Shown: in pieces, positions 30,473 through 46,904 of the stretch
How positions within the stretch are numbered: position 1 is the first letter of the stretch
Layout: every line of letters starts with the position of its first letter
Source: Stappia indica
Lineage (GTDB): Bacteria > Pseudomonadota > Alphaproteobacteria > Rhizobiales > Stappiaceae
Length of the DNA: 64,000 nt
Assembly (NCBI RefSeq): GCF_020177335.1
Contig: NZ_JAIVMG010000001.1
Span: 62,001 to 126,000 of the forward strand
Direction: 5' to 3'
Notes under the pieces: generated by a model
What the model was told of the DNA's origin: nothing
Databases searched by the model: none
What the model saw: the letters and a program-made list of their open reading frames with translations, nothing else
Position numbers and translations under genes: made by a program

Positions 30473-30475
30473 GCC

Positions 30476-30754: not shown

Positions 30755-30918
30755 GCGGCACACTTCCAGGAGATTGGTGCGCCTGTGAGGGAGCCGGCCC
30801 TGCACGGTGGCTTCTGCGTGTCTTCTGTGCTGAAGTGCATGTGCCGTTGTGCAAGGACACGCCCTGCGCGCATGGTTTCCCCGGCTATCTGCCTGATCAA
30901 ATTGACTGGAACGAACCC

Positions 30919-32004: not shown

Positions 32005-32056
32005 TCCCAGTCAGAAGCGGACGTGGCGTCGCCGGAGACGGCGGCCACGTCTGCCG

Positions 32057-32644
32057 TTAGAGCGTTTCCGCCTCCGGGCGGAAGGCCGCGGCGAAGGGGG
32101 CGGGCAGATCGAACTCCGCCAGCACCCGCGCCCGGCCCTCGTCGGACATCTTGCGCGCGGTGCGGGTGACGATCCGCAGGAGTTCCTCCGGGTCGCGCCC
32201 GTCGGCGAAGGGCGAGAAGTACCAGCGCAGGAAGACGAAACAGATCACGTCCTCAAGCTGCTGGACCTCCGGGTCGCGCTTGATGCCTTCCTTGCGCAAC
32301 ATGCGGCCGCTGCGGGCGATTTCCTCGTCATCGTAGCCGGCGTCGGCCATGATGCCGGCCACCCGTTCGGCATGGCGTCGTCCCTGTTCCTTACGCCAGG
32401 CGAGATAGCCGGGCCGGCCTTGCGGATAGCTGTCACGGGAGAGGGTCCAGCGCTCCACATGCTGGCCCCGGGCGGCGATGCGCAGCACTTCCGAGGCGTG
32501 CGGAAACAGCCGCTCCAGCTCCGCGCTCATGCGCTCGCCATAGACGAGGGCGGCCGGGCGGCCGTCTTCCTGGGTCGGGTCGGCGGCATTGGCCGCGTCG
32601 ATGGCGGCAAGGGCGGCGTCAAGGCGGGTGGGATCTTGCGTCAT
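32057..32644 (-). CDS. DUF4202 family protein
   Basis: 195 residues, a DUF4202 member by its segments ARGQHVERWTLSRDSYPQGRPGYLAWRKEQGRRHA and LEDVICFVFLRWYF. The spaced histidines and acidic residues (QHVERW, RRHAE, LEDVICF) suggest an HD-like metal-binding helical fold, but no activity is established. It overlaps the stop of the dnr gene by four bases and so is translated with it. The pairing suggests a role connected with the Dnr regulator or with nitrogen oxide metabolism; that is inference only. Confidence 0.8.
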   Translation of the reverse strand: MTQDPTRLDAALAAIDAANAADPTQEDGRPAALVYGERMSAELERLFPHASEVLRIAARGQHVERWTLSRDSYPQGRPGYLAWRKEQGRRHAERVAGIMADAGYDDEEIARSGRMLRKEGIKRDPEVQQLEDVICFVFLRWYFSPFADGRDPEELLRIVTRTARKMSDEGRARVLAEFDLPAPFAAAFRPEAETL

Positions 32645-33345
32645 TGTCCACGGTTCCAGGCCAGAGCGGTGTCTTCTTCGGCATAGTCGCGCAAGGCCGC
32701 GACATCGGCGATCTCGGCGTAATACTGGCGAATGGTGACGCCATGGTCGCGCAGCTTGGCGAAGGCGCGCGACAGGCTCTCCGGCTTCAGCCCCAGACGC
32801 CCGGCGATCAGCGCCTTGTCGTAGGGCAGGAGCACGGTGCAGGAGCCGTCATCGCGGTCGCACAGTTCCAGCAGGAACTCGGCGACCCGCTGGGCGCCGG
32901 TCTGGGCCTTGAGCTGCTCCACCTGGCCGACCAGGCTGTGCAGGTGGACGAAGGTTGCCGACAGGATCGAGACGGCCACTTCGGGAGACTCGGTGATCAT
33001 CCGCAGGAAGGCATCCGCCTCGATCCGCAGCAAGGTGCAATCGGTGACCGCTTCCGCGCCGACCGGATAGACGTCGTGGCGGAAGGCGACGGCCTCGCCG
33101 AAGCTGCGGCCCTTGGTGAACACGCCGACCACCGCCTCGGTGCCGTTCGGGGCGATGCGGAACAGCTTCACCCACCCCTCGACGACGATGTAGATCGCTT
33201 TGGCGCGTTCGCCTTGCAGGAAGATGGTGGCGCCCCGTTCGAACACGCGGGTATGGGCGCCGGCCAGCAACGCTTCCTGGGCCTGAGCGGGCGCGCTTGC
33301 CAGCAGGAGGGATTGACGGGCGGTTTCTGCGTGTTCGGGTTTCAT
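32641..33345 (-). CDS. dnr: Dnr-type Crp/Fnr family regulator of denitrification
   Basis: 234 residues from the ATG at 33345. The upstream extension of the frame is Arg/Pro-rich and was rejected. The cyclic-nucleotide-type sensor domain has RGATIFLQGERAKAIYIVVEGWVKLFRI and GRSFGEAVAF, followed by a long dimerisation helix and a winged helix with IAGRLGLKPESLSRAFAKLRDHGV. ESLSR in the recognition helix is close to the DNR/NNR pattern that reads TTGAC half-sites. It lacks the N-terminal cysteine set of FNR, so it should sense NO (through heme, as DNR does) rather than O2. It is the obvious candidate for the boxes at 12672, 22951 and 25246. Confidence 0.88.
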   Translation of the reverse strand: MKPEHAETARQSLLLASAPAQAQEALLAGAHTRVFERGATIFLQGERAKAIYIVVEGWVKLFRIAPNGTEAVVGVFTKGRSFGEAVAFRHDVYPVGAEAVTDCTLLRIEADAFLRMITESPEVAVSILSATFVHLHSLVGQVEQLKAQTGAQRVAEFLLELCDRDDGSCTVLLPYDKALIAGRLGLKPESLSRAFAKLRDHGVTIRQYYAEIADVAALRDYAEEDTALAWNRGQ

Positions 33346-33420
33346 GCCTGGGTCTCTGGATGCCTGCGTTTTTTCAGCTGACACCTTGTGCCACAGACCG
33401 GCGGGGCCGCACAGGGGCAA

Positions 33421-33450
33421 CGTGCATTGCGGGGGCAATTGCCTTGCACG
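33421..33450. repeat. Inverted repeat upstream of dnr
   Basis: CGTGCA (33421-33426) and TGCACG (33445-33450) form an inverted pair that encloses the palindrome GGCAATTGCC (33434-33443). It lies about 75 bases upstream of the dnr start and about 100 bases past the fmdB-like stop. It could be an operator for dnr or a structure at the end of the preceding mRNA. No FNR-type box is seen here. Confidence 0.35.
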
Positions 33451-33547
33451 GATGCAGAGCAGAGAAGCGGGCAGCGAAATGGAGGCGGCCGGGCGCGGCG
33501 CGCATGCGGAGGCGATGGCGCCGCGTCCGACCGGGGTCAATGGCCCA

Positions 33548-33850
33548 TCAGTGGCCGATCATCCATTTGTGCCGGGTCGGGGTCGGCTTCTGCGGCCCGA
33601 CCTTGCACAGCGCGCAGCCGCAGCCGGCAAGGTGGCTTCTCTTGACCACCTTGGGTTCGCTACCGCTCTTTTCCGAACGCGACATGGCCCGGCGCAAGGT
33701 GGTGTTCATCAGGTTGAGACGCGGCGCCGCCACGTCCCGGGCGCTGGGTTCGCTGCAGGCGGGGCAAGCGCAGGCATTTGCGGCGTTGCTCATCGTTTCC
33801 CAACTGTCGAAGGGGCCGCATTCTTCGCAGATGTAGTTGTAAAGAGGCAT
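33548..33850 (-). CDS. fmdB: FmdB-family zinc-ribbon protein
   Basis: 100 residues starting at MPLYNYICEECG (ATG at 33850). The N-terminal zinc ribbon has C-x2-C (CEEC) and CACPAC, as in FmdB proteins found with formamidase genes and thought to regulate or assist them. The C-terminal part has a further cysteine group (AGCGCALCK) and a basic tail. It follows the AmiS/UreI-like gene by 68 bases. The function of FmdB is not firmly known. Confidence 0.85.
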   Translation of the reverse strand: MPLYNYICEECGPFDSWETMSNAANACACPACSEPSARDVAAPRLNLMNTTLRRAMSRSEKSGSEPKVVKRSHLAGCGCALCKVGPQKPTPTRHKWMIGH

Positions 33851-33918
33851 ATTTGTCTCCTGTCCTTTCATTCAGGGATCAGGGCGGGGGAGCGCGGCCG
33901 CCGCCCGGTCCGGTCAGC

Positions 33919-34431
33919 TCACAGCAATCCATCCAGAAGCAGGTATCCGGGCATCCAGCCGGTGACGATGCCGGCGACCAGTGTCAGAAGCGCCGTTGGC
34001 CGCAGCACCGGTTTTTGCAGGCCCAGCAGCAGGAAATACATGAACCAGAGCACGGCCCAGATCGCCCAGTTGAGGCCCAGCCAGACATCGGTGAAGGACT
34101 GGGCGGAGCTCAGCCCCTGGATGGCGACCGGCACGACGGTGATGGCCACGAACAGGCTGAACCAGCCGAGACCGCGGCCGTCGACGGCAACGACCCGGTT
34201 GTAAGCAACCCAAAGGTAGGTGGTGGTGAACAGCAAGGTGAGGGCGCCGGCCTTGACCGACGCGGCGTCCGCTGCGCTACCGAACAGCGAACTGAAGGCG
34301 ACGGCGAGGGTGGCGACCCCCGAGACGACATTGATGACGACGATCTCGCGATCCTCGATCTTGCCGAGGAGCCAGAGCCCGTTGAGAAACAGAACGGCGC
34401 CGACGTACAAAAGTGCAAACCCGAGCAGCAT
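33919..34431 (-). CDS. AmiS/UreI-family short-amide or urea channel
   Basis: 170 residues, six to seven hydrophobic helices, with the AmiS/UreI segments LLGFALLYVGAVLFLNGLWLLG, TYLWVAYNRVVAVDGRGLGWFSLFVA and WAIWAVLWFMYFLLLGL. Proteins of this family let urea or short aliphatic amides enter the cell. Between formamidase and FmdB, formamide or another small amide is the likely cargo. Hexameric pore formation is known for UreI; here it is assumed from family. Confidence 0.9.
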   Translation of the reverse strand: MLLGFALLYVGAVLFLNGLWLLGKIEDREIVVINVVSGVATLAVAFSSLFGSAADAASVKAGALTLLFTTTYLWVAYNRVVAVDGRGLGWFSLFVAITVVPVAIQGLSSAQSFTDVWLGLNWAIWAVLWFMYFLLLGLQKPVLRPTALLTLVAGIVTGWMPGYLLLDGLL

Positions 34432-34515: not shown

Positions 34516-35742
34516 TCAGCTCGCCTTGGCGACATCCGCGCCGAAGACCTGCCGTGTCGGGCCGGTCGAGTTCGGGTTGATGTCGAAGTCGAAGATGCCT
34601 GTCGGGATCGCCAGGGTGGCGCAGACATTCGGGATATCGACAATGCCGGCGATGCGCCCCTCCACTGGCGCGGTGCCGAGGATCATGTAGGCCTGCTCGC
34701 CCGAGTATCCGAATTTCATCAGGTATTCGATGGCGTTGAGACAGGCGCGCCGGTAGGCGACATGGGCGTCGAGATAGTACTGTTCGCCCGTATGCTCATC
34801 GACCGAGATGCCTTCGAAGATCAGATAGTCGTCGAAATGCGGGTCGATCGGGCTCGGCTTGAAGATCGGGTTGACCACGCCGTATTTGGCCATGCCGCCC
34901 TTGATGACATCGACGCTGATGTCGATCCAGCCAGCCATCTCGATGGCGCCGCAGAAGGTGATTTCGCCATCGCCCTGGGAGAAGTGGATGTCGCCCATGG
35001 AAAGGCCGCCGCCCTTCACATAGACCGGGAAATAGACCTTGGAGCCGCGCGACAGGTTCTTGATGTCGCAGTTGCCGCCATGTTCGCGCGGCGGCACGGT
35101 GCGCCAGGCTTCCTCTGCCGCCTTTCGGGCCGCATCGCCGGTGAGCTGGCCCATCAGCGCGGTGTCGGCATAGGGCAGGGCGGCGAGCGGCGGCACCCGG
35201 TTGGGATCGGTGGCGACCAGTTCCGCCTCGCGCCGGTTGGCCTCGGCCAGGAGCTTGTGATCGGGCAGGCAGCCGATCAGGCCGGGGTGGATGATGCCCG
35301 GATAGCGGACGCCGGGAATGTGCCGGGAGGTGGTGTAGATGCCCTGGAAATCCCAGCAGGACTTGCTGGCGTTCGGATAGTGCTCGGTCAGGAAGCCGCC
35401 GCCGTTTTCCTTGGCGAACAGGCCGTTGAAGCCCCATTCGGAATCCGGCTTGGCGCCAAGGTCGAGAATGTCGACCACGAGCAGATCGCCCGGCTCCGCG
35501 CCTTCGAACCCGAACGGTCCGCTGAGGTAGTGCACCCGCGTCAGATCGACGTCGCGAATGTCGTTGGCGCTGTCGTTGTTACCGATCTGGCCACCGGTCC
35601 AGTCGTGACATTCAACGCGGATCACCTCGTTCCGCTTGAAGGTTTCGACGAGGGGGATGTCCGGATGCCATCGGTTGTGCGTCTTGATATCCTGATCTTC
35701 CGGCGCCTTGTTCAGGTCGACCGAAAATACTGTCTTGGGCAT
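34516..35742 (-). CDS. fmdA: Formamidase (FmdA/AmdA family)
   Basis: 408 residues from the ATG at 35742, preceded by GGAGGAGGAG. The sequence follows FmdA throughout: HNRWHPDIPLVETFKRNEVIRVECHDWTGGQ, YLSGPFGFEGAEPGDLLVVDILD, PGIIHPGLIGCLP, GGNCDIKNLSRGSKVYFPVYV and MGDIHFSQGDGEI. The enzyme hydrolyses formamide to formate and ammonia in the cytoplasm. Channel and FmdB genes follow on the same strand. The upstream region carries OmpR-type direct repeats, and the adjacent two-component genes probably control it. Confidence 0.95.
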   Translation of the reverse strand: MPKTVFSVDLNKAPEDQDIKTHNRWHPDIPLVETFKRNEVIRVECHDWTGGQIGNNDSANDIRDVDLTRVHYLSGPFGFEGAEPGDLLVVDILDLGAKPDSEWGFNGLFAKENGGGFLTEHYPNASKSCWDFQGIYTTSRHIPGVRYPGIIHPGLIGCLPDHKLLAEANRREAELVATDPNRVPPLAALPYADTALMGQLTGDAARKAAEEAWRTVPPREHGGNCDIKNLSRGSKVYFPVYVKGGGLSMGDIHFSQGDGEITFCGAIEMAGWIDISVDVIKGGMAKYGVVNPIFKPSPIDPHFDDYLIFEGISVDEHTGEQYYLDAHVAYRRACLNAIEYLMKFGYSGEQAYMILGTAPVEGRIAGIVDIPNVCATLAIPTGIFDFDINPNSTGPTRQVFGADVAKAS

Positions 35743-36130
35743 GGAAGCTCCTCCTCCGGTTAGTCTCAAAGACGGGAGGAGCCTGCCGCAGCCGTCATCC
35801 CCCCCAGGATCGCCATCCGCATTCCGTCTTTGTGCGGGATTGCGAACCGTGCGGGGCAAGGTTAGGCAGCTTGTGTAATTCCACTGTGGGCGATGATCGG
35901 CCGTATTGTAATTTTTTGTAATCAAGCCAAGGGGTTAAGGGTGTGTTCGTGCAGTGGGTTGAGCCCCTGTTTCGTCTTTCCGATCAATGATTTGTATTAT
36001 TTTTCTAAGGCCGCGCCTTCGCCGTGGTGCGGCAATCGGCTCTCCCTCCCAATAGTTGCGGGGGAGCCTGCGACAAATACCGATGCTGAAGCGCTCGACC
36101 GGCGGCGGGAAATGCGCTTATCGTATCGCC
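35743..36130. other. Divergent control region between fmdA and the OmpR-type regulator
   Basis: No gene is seen in these 388 bases. The part from about 35860 to 36010 is AT-rich for this genome and holds two copies of TTGTAAT at a 10-base step (35906-35922) plus a related TGTGTAAT at 35872-35879. An in-frame ATG at 36083 could lengthen the regulator gene, but a coding role for the intervening sequence is not evident. Confidence 0.55.
35906..35922. promoter_or_regulatory. Tandem direct repeats resembling an OmpR-type binding site
   Basis: TTGTAAT occurs at 35906-35912 and again at 35916-35922, start to start 10 bases, the spacing at which OmpR/PhoB-type regulators bind as tandem dimers. It lies about 164 bases upstream of fmdA and 209 bases upstream of the OmpR-type gene, between the two divergent starts. 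A related half-site is at 35872. Confidence 0.5.
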
Positions 36131-36865
36131 ATGCAGAGCGAAGAAACACGATCCCGCATACTCGTCGTCGATGATGACCGGCTGTTGTGCAATTTCCTGC
36201 AGAAGTTCCTGTCGGGCGAGGGCTACGGTGTTGCCTGTGCCAATGAAGGGCGGGAGATGCGGCGGGCGCTGGCCGACCAGCCGTTCGATCTGGTGATTCT
36301 CGACCTGACCTTTTCCTCCGGCGACGATGGCATCACGCTGGCGCGTGCCTTGCGGGCGCAATACGATTTCCCGGTGATCGTTCTGTCGGGCAAGAGCACC
36401 ACCATCGACAAGGTGGTCTGCCTGGAACTGGGCGCGGATGACTACATCACCAAGCCGTTCGAGCCGCGCGAGTTGCTGGCGCGGGTGCGCTCGGTGCTGC
36501 GCCGGGCGGTGCGGCGGATCGAGCCGGCGGCAAACGGGGAGGCGGTGGTCGCGCCGATGTGTTTCGCCGGCTGGCGGCTCGACCCGACCTGCTATCAGTT
36601 GAAGTCGCCGGAGGGTGAGGCGGTCCGGCTGACCAGCCAGGAGTTTCAGGTTCTGACAGCACTGGTGCAGCGGCGCGGCCGCATCCTGTCGCGCGAGCAG
36701 ATCCTGGAGATCGTCGCCAACCGCAACTGGACCCCCTATGACCGCAGCATCGACGTGCTGATCGGCAAGATCCGTCGCAAGCTCAACGACAATGCCCGCG
36801 AGATGCAGTTCATCAAGACCATTCGCGGCATCGGCTACATGTTCGCGCCGCCCGAAGGGCACTGA
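36131..36865 (+). CDS. OmpR-family response regulator
   Basis: 244 residues from the ATG at 36131; an ATG 48 bases upstream is an alternative, and neither has a strong ribosome site. The receiver domain has VDDD at the start, the phosphoacceptor Asp58 (VILDLTF) and Lys108 (YITKPFE). The C-terminal winged helix ends with DVLIGKIRRKLND and IKTIRGIGYMF, as in OmpR/PhoB regulators. It diverges from fmdA, and its 3' end overlaps the 3' end of the hybrid kinase gene by 31 bases. It probably receives phosphate from the permease-kinase or the hybrid kinase. Confidence 0.9.
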   Translation: MQSEETRSRILVVDDDRLLCNFLQKFLSGEGYGVACANEGREMRRALADQPFDLVILDLTFSSGDDGITLARALRAQYDFPVIVLSGKSTTIDKVVCLELGADDYITKPFEPRELLARVRSVLRRAVRRIEPAANGEAVVAPMCFAGWRLDPTCYQLKSPEGEAVRLTSQEFQVLTALVQRRGRILSREQILEIVANRNWTPYDRSIDVLIGKIRRKLNDNAREMQFIKTIRGIGYMFAPPEGH

Positions 36866-38052
36866 ACCGCGCGCGGCAGATAGAGGCTGATGCGGGTGCC
36901 GCGCCCCGGGCCGCTGTCGATGGCAAGGCGCCCGCCCGAGCCGCGCACGAAATTCTCCACCATCGGCAGCCCAAGGCCGCAGCCTTCGCCCGGCGGTTTG
37001 GTGGTGAAGAGCGGATCGAGCGCGCGGGCCCGCACCGCCGGGCTCATGCCCTCGCCGCTGTCGGCGACCGAGATCACCACATAGTCCCCGGGGACCAGGT
37101 CGGTCGGGCCATGATGTCCGTCGATGCCGAGCCGGACGTTGCGGGCCTCGAAATCGAGGGTGCCGCCGGTGGGCATGGCATCGCGCGCGTTGAGCGCCAG
37201 GTTGAGCAGGCTCGTTTCCAGCCGTCCGGGCAGGAGTTCGACCGGGGAAAGCCCGTCCTCCATGCGCAGGCGGATGACGAGCGTATCCCCCAAGGTGCGT
37301 TCGAGCATGCGGATGAGAGCGGGAAGCTCTTCGTCCAGCCGGACCAGGCCGATGTTTTCCGATGGCGCGGCGCCGAAGCCGAGAAGCCGGGTGGTCAGGT
37401 CGGATCCGGACCGGGTGGCGGCGAGCGCGTCGGCGACCAGCTCCGCCAGCTCCGGCTGGTGCCGCACCCGCTCTTCCAGCAGGCGCAGATTGCTGAGCTG
37501 AACGGCGAGGATGTTGTTGAAGTCATGGGCAATGCCGCTGGTCAGTTGCCCCATCGCCTCCATGCGCTGCTTCTGGCTCAGCCTTGCGGCGGCCAGCGCC
37601 TTGTCCTTGAGGAGCTGGATGCGTTCAAAGCAGCGGTTCAAGGTGGCGAGCAGATCCTCGCAGTGGAACGGCTTCATCAGGTAGTCGTAGGCGCCGGCCT
37701 GCAGCGCCTCGACCGCCGTTTCGACCGAGGCGTAGGCGGTGATCATCACGCAGACGAGGTCCGGGTCCTTCTTGCGCAGGGCCCGCACCACCTCGATGCC
37801 ATCGCCGGTGCCAAGCCGCACGTCGACAAGTGCAACGGAGACCGATTGCCGGTCGATCAGGCCAAGGGCGGTCTCGCCGTCATGGGCCTGAAACACCCGG
37901 TAGTCTTCGAGTTGCAGCAGGCCGGCGAGGCTTGCGGCGAAATCCGTGTCGTCATCGACGATCAGCAGCGCTCGCCCGCTGGTGCCGTGGCCCTCCTCAC
38001 CGGGTCGGTTGTCCTCCTGTCCTGTCATGTTGCCATCCTCCGGTTGGCTCAT
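36835..38052 (-). CDS. Receiver-histidine kinase hybrid, soluble
   Basis: 405 residues without membrane helices. An N-terminal receiver domain (Asp77 in ALVDVRL, Lys127 in LMKPF) is followed by a linker helix and a kinase with the H-box GIAHDFNN (His176). N, G1 and G2 boxes are visible as NLALNARDAM, DSGEGM and GCGLGLPMV. Such proteins take phosphate from an upstream kinase on the receiver and control their own kinase output. It overlaps the permease-kinase gene by four bases, so the two form an operon and likely one relay. The HDFNN H-box places it in the HPK4 kinase class. Confidence 0.88.
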   Translation of the reverse strand: MSQPEDGNMTGQEDNRPGEEGHGTSGRALLIVDDDTDFAASLAGLLQLEDYRVFQAHDGETALGLIDRQSVSVALVDVRLGTGDGIEVVRALRKKDPDLVCVMITAYASVETAVEALQAGAYDYLMKPFHCEDLLATLNRCFERIQLLKDKALAAARLSQKQRMEAMGQLTSGIAHDFNNILAVQLSNLRLLEERVRHQPELAELVADALAATRSGSDLTTRLLGFGAAPSENIGLVRLDEELPALIRMLERTLGDTLVIRLRMEDGLSPVELLPGRLETSLLNLALNARDAMPTGGTLDFEARNVRLGIDGHHGPTDLVPGDYVVISVADSGEGMSPAVRARALDPLFTTKPPGEGCGLGLPMVENFVRGSGGRLAIDSGPGRGTRISLYLPRAVQCPSGGANM

Positions 38053-40676
38053 GCTCCCATCCCCGGTAACACAAGGGTCACGGTGCTGCCTTCGCCCTCG
38101 ATACTGTCGATGCGGATTTCGCCGCCATGGGCTTCAATGATGCGCTTGACCAGCGGCATGCCGAGGCCGACGCCGAACGCCTTGGTGCTGTAGAGCGGCT
38201 CGAAGGCGCGCCGGCGGGCCTCCATCGACATGCCGCCGCCGTTGTCGGCGATGGACAGGCTCACCCGGTCGCCCTCGCGCCGGGTGGCGACACGGATCGC
38301 GGTCTCGCGATCCTGCACTGCCTCGCAGGCCTGAAGCGCGTTGGTCAGCACGTTGGAAAAGGCCTGGTGCAGGCGCTCGCCATCGACCATCAGCTCGCAA
38401 TCGGCGGCAAGGTCGAGCTGGATCAGGGCGCGGGTTCGGTCATCGAGTTCATCGACCTGGGTTTTCGCCCAGCGGTCGATGGCCAGCGGGGCGGGCGCGA
38501 AGCGATGCTTGCGCGAGAAGTCGAGAAGATCCTCGATGATGCGCACGCAGCGCCAGGCATTGCGCTGCATCCGTTCCAGCTCGCCGGATACCGGTTCGCC
38601 GGCGTTCTTGAGCGAGCGGCGCAGGATGTCCGAGGAGGTCACCAGCGTGCCGAGCGGGTTGCGCAATTCATGGCTGACGGTGGCGGTGACCTTGCCGATG
38701 GCGGCCAGCCGCTCGTTGCTGGCCAGGTCCTGTTGCGCCTGACGCAGCTTCTCCATGGAGGCCATCAGGTCGCGTTCGGCCAGTTCCCGGCTCTCGTGCG
38801 ACAGGACGATCCACCAGGCGCCGATGCACAGAAGCGGCAGGAGCGCGAGAAACACCCCGAGCAGCAGCGAACTGCTTTCAAGACGTGGCTGCCCGGCGGC
38901 GGGTTCGAGCAGCCGGTAGGTCAGAAGGATCGCTGCCGCCGTGACGATGGCAAGGGCAAAGAGGATGCCGCCGACCTTGAACAGCCGCTGTTGCATGTGC
39001 GGGGCGATCTTGTTGCGCAGGCCCCGCCCCAGATAGCTGGCGCGGGATTCCTCAAGCACCCCGCCGGGCGATTTGCAGACATCGTGGCAATGGGAATCGA
39101 GGCTGCAACAGAGCGAGCAGATCGGCCGTTCGTAGAAGGTGCAATGCACCATGTCCGGCCGTTCGTAATCGAGGCCGCAAAGCTCGCAGCGCAGGATCCG
39201 GCGTTTCGGATCGGCGAAGGGGGTGACCGGGCGGGCGCGGTAGTATCTGCCCTTGGTGAGAACGCCGATGGCGACCGCGCTGGCAAGGGCGGTGAGGAAG
39301 GCGATGGGCGCGGCATAGGCCTGGGCCATGGTGCCCAGCGTCCCGGTGAAGCAGACCACCGCCACCAATGCGCCGAGCGCCATCGAGCCGCAGCCGACCG
39401 GGTTGAAATCGGGCAGGTAGGCGCGCCGGAACTCCGGGTAGGCGGGGCTGACGCCAAGGGGCTTGAGGATGGCGAGATCGGCGAAGATCGACCCGATCCA
39501 GGCAGCGGCGATGACCGAATAGACCGCAAGCACCAGTTCCAGCGTCTGGAAGATGCCGAGCAGCATCAGCAAGAGCGAAATCAGGATGTTGAACACCAGC
39601 CAGACCACCCGGCCCGGATGATAGTGGGTGACGCGGGCGAAGAAGTTCGACCAGGCGAGCGAGCCGGCATAGGCGTTGGTCACGTTGATCTTCACCTGCG
39701 AGACCAGCACGAAGATCGCCGCCGCCGCCAGCACCACCACCTGATCGGAACTGACGTAGCCATAGGCCTGGATGTACATGTGGATCGGCTCCAGCGCGGT
39801 TTCGCTGGAAAGACCCGAGGTGATGGCGATGGCGGCGAGGAAGCTGCCGCACAGGATCTTGAAGCCGCCGATGACGATCCAGCCCGGCCCGGCGGAAATG
39901 ACGGCGGCCCACCAGCGCAGGCGGTTCTCCGGCGTCTTGTCGGGCAGGAAGCGCAGATAGTCGACCTGTTCGCCGATCTGGATCGACAGGGCGAACAGGA
40001 TGCCCAGCGCCGCGCCGAAGGAGAGCATGTTGAAACCGCCACCGCCTTTCTCGCTGCCGGCGAAGGCGACCCAGTCGCGCGCGGTCTCCGGATGACCGAT
40101 GGCGATGGCAATGAAGGGCAGCAACAGCATCATGATCCACAGCGGCTGGGTGATCAGTTGCAGCCGGCTGATCATGGTGACGCCCATGAAGGTGATCGGG
40201 ATGATGATCAGCGAGGAGATGATGTAGCCGAGCACCAGGGGCACATCGGCGAACAGCTTCAGCGCCTGGGCCATGATCGCGCCTTCCAGCGCGAAGAAGA
40301 TGAAGGTGAAGGTGGCGTAGATCAGCGAGGTGATGGTGGAGCCGATGTAGCCGAAGCCCGCGCCCCGGGTCAGCAGATCCATGTCGATGTTGTGGCGGCT
40401 GGAATAATAGGCAATCGGCAGGCTGGTGATGAAGACGAACAGGCAGGTCACCAGCACGGCGGGAAAGGCGTTGGCAAAGCCATAGCTGAGGGTAATGGCG
40501 CCGCCGATCGCCTCCAGCGCGAGAAAGGAGATGCCGCCCAGCGCGGTGTTGGCGATGACGAAGGGCGACCAGCGCCGGAACGACCGCGCCGCGTAGCGCA
40601 GCGAGTAGTCCTCCAGCGTCTCGTTGGCGATCCAGGAGTGATAGGACCGCAGCGCGGGCAGATGCGGCAGGTCCAT
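38049..40676 (-). CDS. NCS1 permease fused to Cys-rich cluster and histidine kinase
   Basis: 875 residues. Residues 30-475 are an NCS1 nucleobase:cation symporter-1 like unit (about 12 helices; FVIANTALGGISFLALEA, IQIGEQVDYLRFLPD, VKINVTNAYAGSLAWSNFFAR). Residues 497-534 hold eight cysteines with a CELC and a CSLCC, a likely zinc-binding cluster. Two more helices (about 567-588 and 603-625) lead to a kinase with H-box VSHELRNPL (His669), N-box Asn779, DNGGG (811-815) and GVGLG (835-839). It probably couples binding or transport of a nucleobase- or amide-like compound to signalling. It overlaps the hybrid kinase gene and is close to the formamidase genes. Whether it still transports is unknown. 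Confidence 0.88.
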   Translation of the reverse strand: MDLPHLPALRSYHSWIANETLEDYSLRYAARSFRRWSPFVIANTALGGISFLALEAIGGAITLSYGFANAFPAVLVTCLFVFITSLPIAYYSSRHNIDMDLLTRGAGFGYIGSTITSLIYATFTFIFFALEGAIMAQALKLFADVPLVLGYIISSLIIIPITFMGVTMISRLQLITQPLWIMMLLLPFIAIAIGHPETARDWVAFAGSEKGGGGFNMLSFGAALGILFALSIQIGEQVDYLRFLPDKTPENRLRWWAAVISAGPGWIVIGGFKILCGSFLAAIAITSGLSSETALEPIHMYIQAYGYVSSDQVVVLAAAAIFVLVSQVKINVTNAYAGSLAWSNFFARVTHYHPGRVVWLVFNILISLLLMLLGIFQTLELVLAVYSVIAAAWIGSIFADLAILKPLGVSPAYPEFRRAYLPDFNPVGCGSMALGALVAVVCFTGTLGTMAQAYAAPIAFLTALASAVAIGVLTKGRYYRARPVTPFADPKRRILRCELCGLDYERPDMVHCTFYERPICSLCCSLDSHCHDVCKSPGGVLEESRASYLGRGLRNKIAPHMQQRLFKVGGILFALAIVTAAAILLTYRLLEPAAGQPRLESSSLLLGVFLALLPLLCIGAWWIVLSHESRELAERDLMASMEKLRQAQQDLASNERLAAIGKVTATVSHELRNPLGTLVTSSDILRRSLKNAGEPVSGELERMQRNAWRCVRIIEDLLDFSRKHRFAPAPLAIDRWAKTQVDELDDRTRALIQLDLAADCELMVDGERLHQAFSNVLTNALQACEAVQDRETAIRVATRREGDRVSLSIADNGGGMSMEARRRAFEPLYSTKAFGVGLGMPLVKRIIEAHGGEIRIDSIEGEGSTVTLVLPGMGA

Positions 40677-40987: not shown

Positions 40988-41881
40988 ATGAATCTTCGCC
41001 ATATCGAGGTTTTCCACGCAATCCGGCTGGCCGGTTCGATCAATGCCGCCGCCGACCGGCTGAACGTGTCCCAACCGGCCCTCAGCCGGACCCTGAAACA
41101 CGCCGAATCCCTGCTCGGGTTCAAGCTGTTCGACCGGGTGAAGCAGCGGCTGGTGCCGACCAAGGAAGCCGAACTGCTGTTCGCCGAAGCCAAGGACGTG
41201 CAGGTCGCGCTGGAGCGCTTCCGCACGCTGGCGCGCAACCTGGGGCGCAATCCGGACAACGTGCTGCGGGTCGGTTTCCTGCCCAGCCTCGGGGTAGGGT
41301 TGGCGCCGAAGGTGGTGTCCAAGCTGCCGCAGCACTGGGAGGGCTTCAAGCTGGAGCTTTTCACCCATCACTACGATGTGCTGGTGAAACGGCTGCTGGC
41401 GCTCGATCTGGATCTGGCGGTGGGGTTCTCCATCGTCGAGACGCCGGGCGTCAACAGCACCACCGTCGGCACCATGAGCCTGACCTATCTGGAGACTGAC
41501 GGTCCGGACGTGCCGGTCGATCCTTCGCCGATGGATCTGCGCGAGATCGACATGAACAGCTTTGTCGGGCTGGAAGGGGAATCGCCCGTCGGGGTGTTCC
41601 TCAAGGATGCGTTCGAACGGGTGGGCGTTGCCTATGAGCCGCGCATCTCGGTGCACACCTATTCAGTGGCCGCCGCCTGTGTCAGCCAGGGGGTGGGCTG
41701 CGCCATCGTCGATGAGTTTTCCGCCCGGTTCACACGCGGGGTGCGGCTGCGTCCGCTGACGCCGCCGCTTCAGTTCACCATCACCGCGCTCACGGCGGAA
41801 AACCGGCCGATCTCGAACGCGGAAGACATGTTCATCAAGATCCTGAAATCCGCCTGCACGGAGCTGCACCAGGAAAGCTGA
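40988..41881 (+). CDS. LysR-family transcriptional regulator
   Basis: 297 residues. The N-terminal winged helix is typical (MNLRHIEVFHAIRLAGSINAAADRLNVSQPALSRTLKHAE), and the periplasmic-binding-like effector domain follows (LRVGFLPSLGVGL, LDLAVGFSIV, SFVGLEGESPVGVFL, VSQGVGCAIVDEFSA). It converges on the D-aminoacylase gene, 44 bases away. It may control the liv-amidase-aminoacylase operon, although it does not sit at that operon's promoter; the effector is unknown. Confidence 0.92.
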   Translation: MNLRHIEVFHAIRLAGSINAAADRLNVSQPALSRTLKHAESLLGFKLFDRVKQRLVPTKEAELLFAEAKDVQVALERFRTLARNLGRNPDNVLRVGFLPSLGVGLAPKVVSKLPQHWEGFKLELFTHHYDVLVKRLLALDLDLAVGFSIVETPGVNSTTVGTMSLTYLETDGPDVPVDPSPMDLREIDMNSFVGLEGESPVGVFLKDAFERVGVAYEPRISVHTYSVAAACVSQGVGCAIVDEFSARFTRGVRLRPLTPPLQFTITALTAENRPISNAEDMFIKILKSACTELHQES

Positions 41882-41925
41882 TTGGAGGAAGGCGCGCCGG
41901 TCCGCAAACCGTCGCTTCCTTGCGC

Positions 41926-43374
41926 TCAGATGGCGCCGCGTGCAAGGAATCTGCCGCCGCGCGTTCCCGTCACCCGGCCATCGGTGAGAACCGGCCGGCC
42001 ATTGACGAACACATGCTCGATGCCGGTCGAAGGGCGGTCTGGCGTGTCGTAGTCGGCAAGGTCCAGCACGGTCTCGGCATTGAAGGCGACAAGGTCGGCG
42101 CTGAAGCCGGTCTGCAGCCGGCCGCGGCGGGCCATGCCGAACACCTGCGCGGGCAGGGAGGTCATCTTGCGAATGGCTTCTTCCAGCGGTAGCACGCCAT
42201 CCTCGCGGACGTAGCGTCCGAGCACGCGGGGGAAGGTGCCCCAGAGGCGCGGATGGGATTGCGGGCCGGGAATGCCATCGGAGCCGATCATGGTGCGCGG
42301 GTGGCTCATGATGCGGCGGATATCCTCCGGCGACATCTGGAAATAGACCCCCATGGCGGGGCTGAGCCGGCGGGCGGCTTCCTCGTCGTCGCAGCCCATC
42401 TGCTCGGCAACGCGGGAGAGCTCCATGCCGTTGAATTCCGGATGGGGCCGGGAGTTGATCACCAGAATGCGTTCCGCGTGCCGGGTCAGCTCCGGCAGCA
42501 GCACGGTGGAGCTGGCCTCATAGGGGTAGACATCCATGGCGATGTCCTGATGCCGCAGGGCCTTGTCGATCATCGACAGGGTCCGAACCGAGCGGCCGTA
42601 GTTCTGCTTGCCGATGCATTTGTGGTGGGAAATCACCACCGGAACGCCTGCCTGCCGACCGATGCCGATGGTCTCGCCGACCGCCTCTTCCACCCCGTCG
42701 CGCTCGTCGCGCATATGGGTGACGTAGAGAGCGCCGGGGAAGGCGGCCAGTTCCTGCGACAGGGCGACGATTTCCTCGGTCGGGGCGGCCTTGGCCACCG
42801 GATAGGCAAGGCCGGTGCTGAGACCGAGCACGCCGGCGGTCAATGCCTCGTTGAGATGCCCGCGCATGGCGTCGACTTCCGCCGGGCTCGCCGGACGGTC
42901 CGTGTCGGCGAGCACCATCGCCCGCAACGTGCCGTGACCGGCGAGCGCGGCCACATTGACCGCAACGCCGGCATCGTCGACCGCTCGCCGATAGGCGGCG
43001 AAGGAGCCGAAGCGATAATCGTCGGTATCGCCCAAGAGGCCCAGCGGCGGCACCAGCTTCGGCGGATGCTTGTAGGGCGCGAGGCTGATGCCGCAGTTGC
43101 CGACGATCACGGTGGTCACCCCTTGGGTGATCTTCGGCTCCATGGCGCTGTCGTTGAGAACGGCGAGGTCGTCATGGGTGTGCACGTCGATGAAACCGGG
43201 GGCGAGGCAGAGCCCGTCCAGATCGCGGGTATCCGGCGCCGACCAGTCGGAGACATCGCCGATGGCAAGCAGTTGCCCGCCACCGATCGCCACGCCGCCG
43301 GTTACCGGAGGGCTGCCGAGACCGTCGAACAGCTCGGCGTTGATCAGCAGCGTGTCGCACTGTTTCCGTGTCAT
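41926..43374 (-). CDS. N-acyl-D-amino-acid deacylase (D-aminoacylase family)
   Basis: 482 residues of the amidohydrolase superfamily. The metal-binding HTHDD lies at residues 65-69, Cys94 in GNCGIS is the D-aminoacylase metal cysteine, and later segments STGLAYP, THMRDE, VVISHHKCIGK and MIGSDGIPGPQSHPRLWGTFPRVLG agree with the family. It removes acyl groups from N-acyl-D-amino acids. It is the last gene of the liv-amidase operon, with 44 bases after the amidase stop, and suggests use of D-amino acid derivatives. Confidence 0.9.
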   Translation of the reverse strand: MTRKQCDTLLINAELFDGLGSPPVTGGVAIGGGQLLAIGDVSDWSAPDTRDLDGLCLAPGFIDVHTHDDLAVLNDSAMEPKITQGVTTVIVGNCGISLAPYKHPPKLVPPLGLLGDTDDYRFGSFAAYRRAVDDAGVAVNVAALAGHGTLRAMVLADTDRPASPAEVDAMRGHLNEALTAGVLGLSTGLAYPVAKAAPTEEIVALSQELAAFPGALYVTHMRDERDGVEEAVGETIGIGRQAGVPVVISHHKCIGKQNYGRSVRTLSMIDKALRHQDIAMDVYPYEASSTVLLPELTRHAERILVINSRPHPEFNGMELSRVAEQMGCDDEEAARRLSPAMGVYFQMSPEDIRRIMSHPRTMIGSDGIPGPQSHPRLWGTFPRVLGRYVREDGVLPLEEAIRKMTSLPAQVFGMARRGRLQTGFSADLVAFNAETVLDLADYDTPDRPSTGIEHVFVNGRPVLTDGRVTGTRGGRFLARGAI

Positions 43375-43418
43375 CGGTGGGTCCTTCGGTCGGTGGGCGT
43401 GGCGCTGGGCGGTGGTGG

Positions 43419-44819
43419 TTATGCGGAAAGGCCTGCCGGGGTGCGCCGATCCGGCGACAGGCGGGGCTCAAGGGCGGCGCCGAGGGCGAGAAGGCTGTCC
43501 TCGCCGAAGGCGCGGCCCATCAGCTGCACGGCGAGCGGCAAGCCGGCGTCGCTGAAGCCAGCTGGCAGGGCCAGCGCACAGGCGCCGACGTAGTTGGCCG
43601 GGCGGCCATAGAGCGCCAGCGGGACGGTGGTTTCATCCACCTCGGCCACGGGCACCGCCGGGAAGGGGACGGCCGGCGTCAGGAAGGCATCGAACGGCCG
43701 CATGAAGTCGGCATAGACCTCCTTCATGTGGCGGTGATGCGCCAGGGTGTCGATGTAGTCGTCGGCGCTGACCCCGGCGCCGGCGAGAATGCGCTGGCGC
43801 ACATAGGGGCCGAAGGCGCGGGCGTCATCGGCGATGTAGTCGCGGTGCACCGCATAGGCTTCGGCGGCAATGATGCGGCCATTGCGGGCCGTCAGATCGT
43901 CGAAGCTGAAGGGCAGGCTGACCGGCACCAGCTTTACGCCAAGGGAGCGCAGGGCCTCTTTCGTCCGTTCGAAGGCGGCCTGCATGACCGGATCGAGCGG
44001 GGTGGGAAAATCCTCCTCCCGCATCACCGCCACATGCATGCCTTCCGCCGAAAGCTGGCGCCAGGCGCTGGCCGTGCGCGCGGGGGCGGCAAGGGTCGCC
44101 GGGTCGGCGGGATCGGCGCCGGCAAGGGCGTCAAACAGCAACGCGGCATCCTCGACGGTACGGGTCATCGGCCCGACGGAATCGAGGGTCCCGGAGAGAG
44201 GGAAGCAGCCGCTCAGGCTGATGCGGCCATAGGTCGGCTTGAGACCGGCAAGGCCGTTGAGCGCCGCCGGGATGCGGACGGAGCCGCCGGTGTCGCTGCC
44301 AAGGGCCGCGGGCGCAAGGCCGGCGGCGACAGCAACACCGGACCCGCTGGAGGAGCCGCCGGGAATGCGATGGGTGTCAAGGTCCCACGGGTTGTGCGGG
44401 GTGCCGCAGATCGGGTTGGTGCCCCAGCCGCCGAAGGCAAACTCGACCATGGCGGTGCGGCCGATGGGGATCATGCCTGCGGCGAGCAGGCGCCGCATCA
44501 CGGTGGCATCGCTCGCCGAGCGGCGATCCGACCATGCGGCACTGCCCACGGTGCAGGTCTCGTCCTGCCAGTCCACCAGATCCTTGATGGCGATCGGCAG
44601 GCCGTGCAGCGGGCCGTAAACGACACCGGAGGCGCGCAGCCTGTCATGGCCCTCGGCCATGGCCATCGCCTTGTCGGCATCGACATGGACGAACGCACCC
44701 AGCTTCGCGTCATGCGCGGCGATCCGGTCGAGGAAATGCCGGGTGATATCGGTTGCGGTTAGAGCCCCCTCATCGAGGGCTTTCGACAGATCCGCAAGGG
44801 AGGCAAATGACAGGTCCAT
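43419..44819 (-). CDS. Amidase (amidase signature family)
   Basis: 466 residues. The Ser-cisSer-Lys triad is visible: Lys79 (IAIKD), cis-Ser156 in GGSSSGSG (residues 154-161) and nucleophile Ser180 in GSDTGGSVRIP. The family hydrolyses diverse amides, including glutamyl-tRNA in GatA, but the absence of GatB/C neighbours and the presence of an importer and D-aminoacylase point to catabolism of an amide taken up by the ABC system. The substrate is not shown by the sequence. Confidence 0.9.
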   Translation of the reverse strand: MDLSFASLADLSKALDEGALTATDITRHFLDRIAAHDAKLGAFVHVDADKAMAMAEGHDRLRASGVVYGPLHGLPIAIKDLVDWQDETCTVGSAAWSDRRSASDATVMRRLLAAGMIPIGRTAMVEFAFGGWGTNPICGTPHNPWDLDTHRIPGGSSSGSGVAVAAGLAPAALGSDTGGSVRIPAALNGLAGLKPTYGRISLSGCFPLSGTLDSVGPMTRTVEDAALLFDALAGADPADPATLAAPARTASAWRQLSAEGMHVAVMREEDFPTPLDPVMQAAFERTKEALRSLGVKLVPVSLPFSFDDLTARNGRIIAAEAYAVHRDYIADDARAFGPYVRQRILAGAGVSADDYIDTLAHHRHMKEVYADFMRPFDAFLTPAVPFPAVPVAEVDETTVPLALYGRPANYVGACALALPAGFSDAGLPLAVQLMGRAFGEDSLLALGAALEPRLSPDRRTPAGLSA

Positions 44820-44849
44820 GTCTTCTTTCTTTTCACAGGAGATACGTCC

Positions 44850-44872
44850 GGCCCGGGGAGCGCCCCCGGGCC
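44850..44872 (-). other. Stable hairpin between the binding-protein gene and the amidase gene
   Basis: GGCCCGGGG (44850-44858) pairs with CCCCGGGCC (44864-44872) around a five-base loop. No T-run follows on the minus strand. Hairpins at this place, after an abundant solute-binding protein, commonly protect its mRNA and lower expression of the next gene. Confidence 0.55.
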
Positions 44873-44884
44873 GAGCGCGATTGA

Positions 44885-46114
44885 TCAGTTCCGCTGGTCC
44901 CAGGCGGGGATCGGGTACACCGGCTTGGCGACGGCGACCTCTTCCGGCCAGACGGTGACCAGGCCCTTTTCCGGTTGCAGCTGCACGACCGGGAACGGCA
45001 TCTTCAGCTGCTTGCCGGTCTCGTCGACCGCATAGGGGCCGGCGAGAACCGTGAGGTTGTCGCTGAGGTCGAGGGCGGCCTGCTTCAGCTTGTCGGCTTC
45101 GAAGCTGTCGGCCTTCTCGATGATCTCGCCGGCGATGACGGCGGCGCCATAGGCGAGGACCGTCTGGAAGTCCGGTGCATAGGAGACGTCCGGGAACATC
45201 GTCTCGTAGGCGCTGATGAAGCCCGCGCGGTCGAGGCCGGCGTTCACGTCCCAGTTGATGGTGGGATGGAAGTTGGTGTGGCTGTAGATGTACTGGGCAT
45301 CGTCGCCGATCTCGATGAACTGCGGCGTCGAGGCGTAGACCATGAACGAGAACGGGAAGTTGACGTTCATCTGGCGCATCTGCCGCACCATGGAGATGAG
45401 GTCGCCCTCGTAGCTGGTGGGGAAGAACACATCCGCACCGGCGGCACGCGCCTTCTGCAGCAGCAGGCTGAAGTCCTTGGTGCCCTTCGGGTAATCTTCC
45501 TTCAGCACCACTTCCATGCCGAGCTTCTCGGCAATGGCCTCGGCACCGTCGGCAAGGCCGGCGGGGAAGGGCTCGTCGACATTGACGATGGCGACCTTCG
45601 TGCCGCCGAGGGCATGAGCCGCCTCAAGGCCGGCGGAGGGCATGCGCGAGACCGGCATCTGGGTGGCGGAAACGATGTTCTTGAAGCCCTGGTCGTAGAG
45701 GGCATCGGAGGCCGCCGACCAGATCACCATGAACTTGCCGAGCCGTTCGGTCACGGTGGCTGCCGCCGCCGTCAGGGTCGAGCCGAAGGGCGCGAGCAGG
45801 ACGTCCACGTTCTCGTTGACGATGAGGTCTTCGTAGACCCGGGCGACCATCTGCTTGTCGCTGCGGTCATCACGCTTGACCAGCTCGACGAGGCGCTTCT
45901 CGCCGCCGAACTCAAGGCCGCCCTGCTTGTTGATCTCGTCGACCCAGATCTCCACGCCGCGCACGCCCGACTGGGATGCCAGGGCGAAGTTGCCCGATGA
46001 CGACACGGTCATGCCGATGCGGATCTTCTCCGCCGCCTCTGCCACGGTCAGCGGCAGGCTCATGCACGCCAGCAGCGTGCCGGCCAGAAAACTACGCTTG
46101 GTAATGGTCCACAT
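44885..46114 (-). CDS. ABC transporter substrate-binding protein, branched-chain amino acid type
   Basis: 409 residues from the ATG at 46114, with GAGGGAGG before it; the longer frame upstream overlaps the ATPase gene. A signal peptide (ITKRSFLAGTLLACMSLPLTVAEA) leads into a LivK-like two-lobed fold (IRIGMTVSSSGNFALASQSGVRGVEIWVDEINKQGG, VDVLLAPFGSTLTAAAA, FSLLLQKARAAGADVFFPTSYEGD). It captures the substrate in the periplasm for LivHMGF. Its amidase and D-aminoacylase neighbours suggest an amide or N-acyl amino acid rather than leucine. Confidence 0.92.
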   Translation of the reverse strand: MWTITKRSFLAGTLLACMSLPLTVAEAAEKIRIGMTVSSSGNFALASQSGVRGVEIWVDEINKQGGLEFGGEKRLVELVKRDDRSDKQMVARVYEDLIVNENVDVLLAPFGSTLTAAAATVTERLGKFMVIWSAASDALYDQGFKNIVSATQMPVSRMPSAGLEAAHALGGTKVAIVNVDEPFPAGLADGAEAIAEKLGMEVVLKEDYPKGTKDFSLLLQKARAAGADVFFPTSYEGDLISMVRQMRQMNVNFPFSFMVYASTPQFIEIGDDAQYIYSHTNFHPTINWDVNAGLDRAGFISAYETMFPDVSYAPDFQTVLAYGAAVIAGEIIEKADSFEADKLKQAALDLSDNLTVLAGPYAVDETGKQLKMPFPVVQLQPEKGLVTVWPEEVAVAKPVYPIPAWDQRN

Positions 46115-46158
46115 AGGTATCCTCCCTCTTGGGTCCGGTTGGTTGCGTCCCGACGTCG

Positions 46159-46902
46159 TCAGACGTCGATCCTGTAGTTCATCCATTCGGCGACCATCTC
46201 CTTGAGCTGGCCGTCGGTGGCGAAATCCTCTTTGGTGCCCTCTGCCTTGTTGCGGCCCAGCTCCAGGATGTGGAGCCGGTCGGAAATGGCGGCGCATTGG
46301 CGCACGTTCTGGTCGACCAGAATGATGGTCGCCCCCTGGTCCGCCAGCGAGCGGGTCAGGGCGTAGATGTCCTTGGAAATCTTCGGCGCGATCATCGCCG
46401 TCGGCTCGTCGAGCAGAATGACCTTCGGGTCGGTGACCAGTGCCCGGGCGATCTCGAGGAACCGCTGCTGGCCACCGCTGAGCGCGCTGGCCGGGCTGGC
46501 GGAGCGTTCCTTGAGCACCGGGAACTTGTCGAAGGTCGCGGCGATGGCGCGGGTAATCCGGGCCTTGTCCTTGCGGAACGGCCAGCAGCCGAGCAGCAGG
46601 TTGTCGTAGACCGAAAGGCCCGGAAACACGCTGCGGTTCTGCGGCACGAAGGCGATGCCTTCCAGCGCCCGCTGGAACGCCTTCAGGCCGGTGATGTCGC
46701 GCCCGCCCATGTGGATCGCGCCGGTGCGGGTGGTCAAAAGACCGAAGATGGTCTTCAGCACCGTCGACTTGCCGGCCCCGTTCGGGCCGATGATGCCGGT
46801 TACCTCGCCCGGCTGGGCGCGCAGTGCCACGCCCTGCAACACCGTGATGTCCCCATTGTAGGCGACACTGATGTTTTCCATGCTGAGTTCAACGCCATCC
46901 AT
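46159..46902 (-). CDS. livF: ABC transporter ATP-binding protein, LivF type
   Basis: 247 residues. Walker A GPNGAGKST, signature ALSGGQQRFLEIARAL and Walker B VILLDEPTAMI are complete, and QNRSVFPGLSVYDNLLLG is the LivF-like Q-loop region. It pairs with the LivG-type ATPase, whose stop is two bases upstream, to drive import. The symbol reflects family, not proven leucine specificity. Confidence 0.92.
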   Translation of the reverse strand: MDGVELSMENISVAYNGDITVLQGVALRAQPGEVTGIIGPNGAGKSTVLKTIFGLLTTRTGAIHMGGRDITGLKAFQRALEGIAFVPQNRSVFPGLSVYDNLLLGCWPFRKDKARITRAIAATFDKFPVLKERSASPASALSGGQQRFLEIARALVTDPKVILLDEPTAMIAPKISKDIYALTRSLADQGATIILVDQNVRQCAAISDRLHILELGRNKAEGTKEDFATDGQLKEMVAEWMNYRIDV

Positions 46903-46904
46903 GA

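Follow-up and report, generated by a model that had tools for sequence, protein, structure and literature searches.

What would a histidine kinase sense when a complete transporter fold precedes it on the same polypeptide and its gene lies beside those of a formamidase and an amide channel? This question is raised by a locus of Stappia indica (contig NZ_JAIVMG010000001.1, positions 62,001 to 126,000), analysed as one stretch of 64,000 nucleotides, hereafter the window, in which an 875-residue protein is encoded on the minus strand at 38049-40676. Considering its domains, its relatives and the genes that accompany them, we think it likely that this protein is a transporter-derived receptor kinase for urea and short amides, driving the formamidase gene fmdA through an OmpR-type regulator; formamide would most likely be the ligand in the Stappia indica genome. 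The family as a whole is probably an unrecognised switch for adjoining genes of urea or formamide uptake or breakdown in many proteobacteria. We infer the class of ligand from the neighbouring genes and, less firmly, from the chemistry of the pocket.

A transporter fold and a histidine kinase in one polypeptide

The domain make-up, as read from the sequence, is the following.

38049..40676, minus strand: NCS1-like transporter / eight-cysteine / histidine kinase fusion, 875 amino acids (open reading frame, Pfam, relatives at 35 loci)
39231..40589, minus strand: NCS1-like transporter-fold domain, residues 30-482 (profile and fold matches to CodB and Mhp1)
39075..39188, minus strand: eight-cysteine module, residues 497-534 (spacing shared by all 106 kinase-type members)
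38805..38975, minus strand: two extra hydrophobic helices, residues 568-624 (hydropathy; low-confidence helices in the full-length model)
38064..38696, minus strand: histidine kinase core (HisKA, HATPase_c), residues 661-871 (Pfam)

In the list of open reading frames (ORFs) of the window the protein occupies a single frame of 875 amino acids without internal stop, and Pfam places HisKA at residues 661-723 and HATPase_c at 765-871. The kinase motifs named in an earlier note on this DNA are all present in the translation (H669, N779, DNGGG at 811-815 and GVGLG at 835-839), the H-box being found in 105 of 106 kinase members with a truncated one (L065) as the exception. The two extra helices of that note also reappear, as hydropathy peaks at 568-586 and 606-624 and as helices in the full-length model, there with a predicted local distance difference test score (pLDDT) below 50. 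A scan of genome_contigs with patterns from the window protein gave 35 loci, 32 of which encode full-length relatives in one frame; outside this count are L053 (875 amino acids with a re-placed start), L065 (frame stops at 627 amino acids) and L066 (contig end). Because 32 of the 35 loci give such relatives, an assembly fusion or a frame error separating permease from kinase, the danger that the note itself had pointed out, is excluded, and its description of a permease part and an intact kinase on one polypeptide is upheld by the frame, the Pfam domains and the relatives alike. With a transporter-fold domain and an intact histidine kinase in one chain, the protein has the domain make-up of a 'transceptor'. 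The locus of Stappia taiwanensis (L038) is 98% identical to the window. In Halomonas PA16-9 (L109) and Nitratireductor pb3 (L065) the kinase gene is broken into more than one frame; urtB and urtC of L109 also appear split, which suggests sequencing errors.

To which family does the membrane part belong? Residues 1-566 gave nothing in Pfam even at E 10, PF02133 (the curated NCS1 model) included, and L073, a relative in the same genome, scored 16 bits against PF02133, whose cut-off is 23.5. Searched against the PDB, a profile of 31 family members matched CodB alone at E up to 10 (E 4.5e-5), with no match to an SLC5 transporter domain at that limit, and a broader profile including distant kinase-less relatives, which add to its score, matched only CodB (1.2e-29) and Mhp1 (9e-21). 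In the AlphaFold2 model of residues 1-566 (33 sequences, mean pLDDT 74.7, predicted template modelling score 0.78, residues 1-28 and 525-566 unreliable) the transporter fold is complete; Foldseek places CodB closest (E 2.3e-7), then Mhp1 (1.1e-6), and VIA-align gives Z 29.9 for CodB (root-mean-square deviation 3.8, 392 residues aligned), Z 27.1 for Mhp1 (4.0, 412 aligned), about 20-22 for SLC5-type chains and 22.7 and lower for the other LeuT-fold families. By profile and by fold, homology to NCS1 (Transporter Classification 2.A.39) stands above that to other LeuT-fold families, and the PF02133 match, the aromatic sandwich and the Na2 hydroxyls of transmembrane helix (TM) 8 that would mark an NCS1 transporter are wanting. 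The domain would thus be NCS1 by homology and not quite by signature, and we call it NCS1-like rather than filing it as an NCS1 transporter. Of the families that the earlier note had considered, NCS1 was reached through CodB and Mhp1 by profile, whereas the Pfam NCS1 model and the SLC5 profile search gave no match.

Gene neighbourhoods and the repeat upstream of fmdA

The gene order around the kinase, again read from the sequence, is that of a cassette composed of the kinase, a receiver-kinase, an OmpR-type regulator and fmdA-amiS-fmdB.

36835..38052, minus strand: receiver domain with a second HisKA/HATPase core, 405 amino acids (Pfam; adjoins the kinase in 34 of 35 loci)
36131..36865, plus strand: OmpR-type response regulator (Response_reg, Trans_reg_C; present at 33 of 35 loci, L041 and L055 being without it)
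35907..35921, minus strand: candidate operator TTACAAAAAATTACA (TTACA-N5-TTACA), 164 bp upstream of the fmdA start, position conserved
34516..35742, minus strand: fmdA, formamidase (NCBIfam FmdA equivalog, 742.6 bits with a cut-off of 500; Pfam FmdA_AmdA)
33919..34431, minus strand: amiS/ureI-type amide/urea channel (Pfam AmiS_UreI, E 2.4e-58; in 32 of 35 loci)
33548..33871, minus strand: FmdB-like zinc-ribbon protein (Pfam Zn_ribbon_8, E 1.1e-10; in 32 of 35 loci)

The equivalog score and the AmiS_UreI match bear out the formamidase and the amide channel that the earlier note had placed beside the kinase. The start of the receiver-kinase gene overlaps the stop of the kinase gene by four bases (ATGA), and the sole locus without it is L055, where the contig ends first. 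The OmpR gene, which runs away from fmdA and towards the receiver-kinase gene, had its start placed by eye (the ORF opens at 36056), and the start of fmdA was set at MPKT (the ORF reaches 35925). At four loci (L061, L066, L069 and L070) two adjacent receiver-kinase matches lie downstream of the kinase, which may reflect a relay protein that is duplicated or split, or one match in two pieces.

The family falls into two branches, a short form of about 875-900 amino acids, to which the window protein belongs, and a hybrid form of about 1040-1285 amino acids. On a quick tree (109 rows, long branches present) the short form is one clade of 38 rows with support 100, and a single change separates the two forms. 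The hybrid form has its own receiver domain in 6 of 6 proteins tested, and a LuxR-type regulator match lies beside the hybrid kinase in 68 of 68 loci (Pfam on two).

How constant is the company of the kinase? With neighbour markers fixed at a minimum of 45% identity and 150 bits, a formamidase, urtA or urease gene was found near 91 of 99 kinase loci in the pooled sets, and in none of 20 random windows drawn from the same genomes with a fixed seed. By set, fmdA occurs in 32 of 35 close loci, fmdA and/or urtA in 20 of 25 class loci, and fmdA, urtA and/or ureC in 39 of 40 phylum loci, the fortieth (L162) being kinase-less, hence at all 39 kinase loci; fmdA itself stands at 68 of the 99, and these rows are not independent, as L147 and L149 repeat L067 and L063 and several share a genus. 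The possibility that homologues never occur with amide genes, raised in the earlier note together with the idea of surveying them for fmdA, is therefore set aside by these counts, and its suggestion of a nitrogen-rich small molecule as the input gains support, the neighbours pointing to urea and short amides.

Eight kinase loci have no marker (L041, L055, L066, L083, L086, L090, L093 and L098). L055 and L066 lie at contig ends, L083, L086 and L090 come from one genus, and the gene of L098 is broken. Another contig of the L041 genome carries the fmdA cassette; in the genomes of L083, L086 and L090, fmdA stands near a urtA relative at a different place (read in G033), and in that of L093 (G051) urt genes lie on the same contig at a distance of about 60 kb. 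Ten plasmid loci, hand-picked for the reading of their neighbours, gave a comparable range of genes: formamidase and urtABCDE in Klebsiella and Paraburkholderia, urease and urt in Novosphingobium, urease with urt further away in Mitsuaria, urt on Sinorhizobium meliloti pSymB, fmdA-amiS in Paracoccus, and fmdA and urt by tblastn in an unannotated Halomonas plasmid, with no marker near the Tistrella locus; the two kinase-less relatives lie beside urease (Acinetobacter) and hydantoinase genes (Rhodococcus, L105). An aliphatic amidase relative accompanies 10 of 68 hybrid loci, that of L101 being only 38% identical and that of L081 an NCBIfam equivalog with 721.3 bits. The quick tree requires five or more switches between urea-linked and amide-linked loci, the labels being our own and rows with absent or unclear neighbours having been excluded (nine from the tree, ten from the residue scan below).

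The repeat TTACA-N5-TTACA is perfect in 32 of 35 OmpR-fmdA intergenic regions (the window, 32 close loci, L147 and L149) as against none of 1400 dinucleotide shuffles, the exceptions being L070 (one mismatch) and L062 and L069 (a long region with the repeat further up); since the intergenic regions are related, the 32 are not independent events. It stands exactly once per fetched locus in 32 of the 35 close loci, all but L041 (no fmdA at the locus), L055 (contig ends first) and L070. Two relocated copies are stronger evidence than the count: in a rearranged Paracoccus locus, where fmdA lies beside the kinase, the repeat is upstream of fmdA, and it is present again at the relocated fmdA cassette of the L041 genome. 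On this DNA evidence the repeat tracks fmdA when the cassette is rearranged. None of the 63 hybrid-set loci, among them L098 and L162, has a perfect repeat, nor has any of the 20 random windows; the genome of the window has three in 4.66 Mb, and one site within one mismatch of TTACAAAAAATTACA. A six-base spacer, TTACA-N6-TTACA, was rejected, having two to three mismatches at most loci and no enrichment in the window, where the five-base spacer matches perfectly.

These neighbourhoods might also belong to a general nitrogen-status kinase that is merely carried with nitrogen-scavenging operons, as the associated enzymes release ammonia and as SMb20609, the family member of S. meliloti, goes up without the storage regulator PhaR in the same module as urease subunits (PMC12542648). 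We regard this as quite unlikely, given that a single substrate class is served by repeated gene clusters with their own regulator and that the operator-like repeat stands once per locus in the short branch.

The pocket, the cysteine module and the putative ligand

In NCS1 transporters the base is held in an aromatic sandwich, mostly Trp in TM3 and Phe or Trp in TM6, which is kept across the family (PMC9379551); the residues of CodB and Mhp1 that contact substrate and Na+ are named in PMC9379551 and PMC4195764, the Na2 site of CodB being formed by the TM8 hydroxyls T278 and T279 and cytosine being bound by the backbone of A207. We mapped these positions through a hidden Markov model alignment of distant proteins (16-18% identity). 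Among 106 kinase members, the TM6 aromatic (CodB F204) falls on position 230, which is Leu in 104, Phe in one and Met in one, and the TM3 Trp (CodB W108, Mhp1 W117) on position 127, which is Phe in 93 and Leu in 13. T278 and T279, whose counterparts in Mhp1 are presumably S312 and T313, correspond to K329 (106 of 106) and I330 (105 of 106), and Mhp1 Q121 and CodB A207 to E131 and Q233, both in all 106. Invariant in the pocket are T124, E131, Q233, E236, Q237, K329, N331 and N334, whichever gene set adjoins the kinase. On this alignment, then, the base clamp has lost one side and usually has Phe for Trp on the other, different residues stand at the Na+ site, and the pocket has gained in polarity. 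The relation to NCS1 claimed in the earlier note stands, CodB and Mhp1 being nearest, and its nucleobase type is not supported; from the pocket residues and the neighbours a plain nucleobase transporter was judged unlikely. The interchange of urea and amide genes around an invariant pocket fits a receptor for the H2N-C=O group that these compounds share. As a lead only, T167 and G395 are kept in 93% and 97% of 74 amide-linked members and changed in six of seven urea-linked lineages; they are possible specificity positions, one lineage keeping each and many columns having been scanned.

Could the domain still transport its ligand, the kinase reading transport and not simple binding, as in the model proposed for CbrA? 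We hold this possible, if doubtful. The modelled transporter fold is complete, the residues R242 and Y336, which align with the R216-Y285 pair of CodB, do not vary among the 106 members, and the transporter domain of CbrA imports histidine (PMC13022988). In Acinetobacter lwoffii a close relative that lacks the kinase, L104, occurs on its own next to urease, a sign that the domain may be able to function as a transporter. On the other hand, the TM8 Na+ ligands have become Lys and Ile, which excludes Na+ coupling only, an amide/urea channel or an ATP-binding cassette (ABC) transporter is already encoded at most loci, and E55, invariant in the kinases, is Phe in L104, so that the stand-alone and the kinase forms may differ in function. 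A receptor is favoured over a transporter because the Na+ site is lost and separate transporters are present.

Two observations belong beside this question. L104 (11950-13557, on an Acinetobacter lwoffii plasmid), which has half of the cysteine module and lies directly upstream of a urease operon, is a candidate stand-alone urea transporter. Position 55 is Glu in 106 of 106 kinases and not in the kinase-less L104, L105 and L162, and E55 may be relevant to signalling.

Several points weigh against urea or a short amide as the ligand sensed, and against the control proposed for fmdA. The neighbourhood gives a pathway and not a ligand, and marker genes are absent near 5 of the 25 class loci, L098 with its broken gene among them. 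The genome of the window also encodes urease (contig C11) and a urea-type urtA (C4), so that urea is a possible ligand here as well. The residue mapping may be off by one, in TM8 especially. E131, Q233, N331, N334 and the basic residue at 329 are common to the kinase-less L105 and L162 and are therefore not amide-specific; among the invariant residues, T124, E236 and Q237 are the only ones by which the family (and L104) differs from these two. Position 127 is still aromatic in 93 of 106, and this Phe at the TM3 clamp, with E131 and Q233 shared by the hydantoinase-linked L105, lowers our confidence in the amide reading. Imperfect repeats are not clearly enriched in the window, with seven at up to two mismatches where 3.8 are expected and 12 of 100 shuffles reach seven.

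The same residues suggest a different ligand, namely a nucleobase, hydantoin or allantoin-like heterocycle, with fmdA and urease acting downstream on the formamide or urea released from it. Such a ligand would suit the NCS1 ancestry, the kinase-less L105 and L073 beside hydantoinase genes (the ORF near L073 being hydantoinase-like by eye), the E131 and Q233 of L105, and a Phe at 127 that could still stack on a ring. Nevertheless, 104 of 106 members have Leu in place of the TM6 aromatic, and no nucleobase, hydantoin or allantoin family was recognised at annotated kinase loci or among their recurrent neighbours, which were clustered from ORFs of at least 150 amino acids within 8.5 kb (families in at least five loci) and read by eye, the clustering being muddied by shadow frames in GC-rich DNA and some clusters left unidentified. 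A creatininase-family gene lies near the Klebsiella kinase locus. We consider a heterocycle unlikely.

Between the transporter fold and the kinase, the cysteines at 497, 500, 512, 520, 523, 524, 530 and 534, counted in the translation where the earlier note had put its cluster, follow the spacing C-x2-C-x11-C-x7-C-x2-CC-x5-C-x3-C, identical in 106 of 106 kinase-type proteins and matched once in the genome of the window. Pfam recognised no family in the module (best chance match E 0.23, in one of 12 sequences), and the PDB gave zinc-finger matches too weak and partial (best E 0.015) to be accepted as homology. The module would lie in the cytoplasm and probably has two zinc sites. L104 keeps cysteines 1, 2, 4 and 5 and has lost the other four, which, for this one sequence, would fit two separate metal sites, one of them tied to the kinase form. 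Might the cysteines themselves be the sensor, of metal or of redox state (for example for the nickel-dependent urease), with the membrane domain as a mere anchor? The spacing, the same in all 106, speaks for this, yet the transporter part is better conserved between the branches than the whole protein (48-55% identity to 20 hybrid members, against 39-44%), its pocket is invariant, and the formamidase gene stands at 68 of the 99 kinase loci; fmdA is not known to require nickel. We regard this last explanation as very unlikely.

Returning to a receptor for urea and short amides, the signal would run from the membrane to the kinase. The NCS1-like domain would bind the amide at the place where CodB and Mhp1 hold their substrates, in a more polar pocket whose aromatic clamp is weakened and which lacks a normal Na+ site, and the bound state would be relayed through the cytoplasmic eight-cysteine module and the two extra helices to the kinase, which would autophosphorylate on H669. 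The phosphate might then pass to the receiver-kinase protein and/or the OmpR-type regulator, and the latter would bind TTACA-N5-TTACA and switch on fmdA-amiS-fmdB.

Known fusions, distribution and adjacent genes

Fusions of transporters with kinases are known, such as CbrA (PMC13022988) and an ammonium transporter-kinase (PMC5764959). CbrA and the other SLC5/STAC kinases (CrbS, RpuS) likewise join a transporter domain to a histidine kinase and control nutrient-use genes (PMC13022988, PMC9100948), but they carry an SLC5 transporter and a helical STAC linker and serve the use of histidine, acetate and pyruvate, whereas the window family is NCS1-like, has the eight-cysteine module and is linked to amides. 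With regard to the STAC linker, no Pfam family was found in the cysteine segment or in residues 1-566, the Pfam coverage of STAC being uncertain and residues 525-566 being poorly predicted in the model; by eye, no conservation is apparent in the DNA upstream of nine loci, a small partner peptide like CbrX not having been systematically sought. The ammonium transporter-histidine kinase of Kuenenia stuttgartiensis also joins the transporter of a nitrogen compound to a kinase, but its transporter is of the Amt/Rh type and its ligand ammonium (PMC5764959). Mhp1 and CodB are the nearest solved structures by profile and fold; compared with them the window family has its TM6 aromatic and Na+ site replaced, Phe or Leu for the TM3 Trp, a fused kinase, and urea/amide genes at its side. 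In the literature searched, outside which most subscription papers lie, neither a published NCS1-type sensor kinase nor a transporter-type urea/amide sensor was found, which agrees with the earlier note's failure to match the fusion to a described system.

Some members have been met before under other names. SMb20609 is more abundant without PhaR, has a PhaR-bound promoter and was called functionally uncharacterised in 2025 (PMC12542648); the printed 21-base PhaR site identifies it with the protein at L110:11980-15360, upstream of which this site lies at 95 nt, the same distance as in that paper. SMb20609/SMb20610 resemble the window system as a hybrid-branch member beside urtABCDE, and differ from it by carrying a receiver domain of their own together with a LuxR-type regulator. 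For Ectopseudomonas guguanensis, a map of the urease/urt genes shows a hybrid kinase ('HK') and a LuxR regulator, with no sensing role or transporter domain given in the part available (PMC13296017); going by its neighbours and not by its sequence, this kinase is probably of the same hybrid branch. The urtABCDE genes beside formamidase have been suggested to carry formamide (PMC13209695), and a bacterial NCS1 transporter for non-aromatic metformin has been reported (PMC13390362), so that the NCS1 family can apparently take non-aromatic nitrogen compounds.

As to distribution, a class-wide draw of 385 genomes gave 28 with a match at E 0.001, of which 26 were strong (one being a fragment), and a draw of 398 across Pseudomonadota gave 59, 52 of them with E below 1e-170 by our own count. 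Of 72,556 plasmid records 531 gave a match, which covered 80% or more of the query in 523, with at least one kinase-less relative (L105) among the weakest; 342 matching records are from Klebsiella. Members are annotated as 'ATP-binding protein' or 'hybrid sensor histidine kinase'. It is quite possible, if tentative, that they form a new and widespread class of urea/short-amide receptors, in which an NCS1-derived domain, its pocket rebuilt and its Na+ site gone, acts as a binding receptor and not as a pump and signals through an undescribed two-zinc eight-cysteine module to a kinase dedicated to the control of formamidase, urease and amide/urea transport, both on Klebsiella plasmids and in many proteobacteria. 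Nitrogen is commonly drawn from urea and formamide, and the genes for their use are well annotated. If the proposal is true, rhizobia, Burkholderiales and gammaproteobacteria, as well as plasmids, would hold a direct urea/amide switch, a further transporter family would join the SLC5 and Amt sensor fusions, and a base-transporter pocket would prove to have been rebuilt for a very small ligand. On one Klebsiella plasmid (NZ_KY271405.1, L101) the hybrid form, with formamidase and urtABCDE, lies amid insertion sequences.

Two further groups of genes flank the cassette. At 40988-49527 a LysR regulator, an amidohydrolase, an amidase and a Liv-type ABC transporter make up a second amide-like cluster next door, which was rejected as part of the system because its co-occurrence with the kinase is limited to L038 among the 35 loci: the LysR regulator, amidohydrolase, substrate-binding protein and permeases stay only in Stappia taiwanensis, and the weak ATPase and amidase matches at other loci are generic. 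On the other side, 27966-33540 encodes a VWA protein, a COX3-family protein, a choloylglycine-hydrolase-family protein, DUF4202 and a Crp/Fnr-type regulator, and the VWA/COX3 pair is reminiscent of norD/norE.

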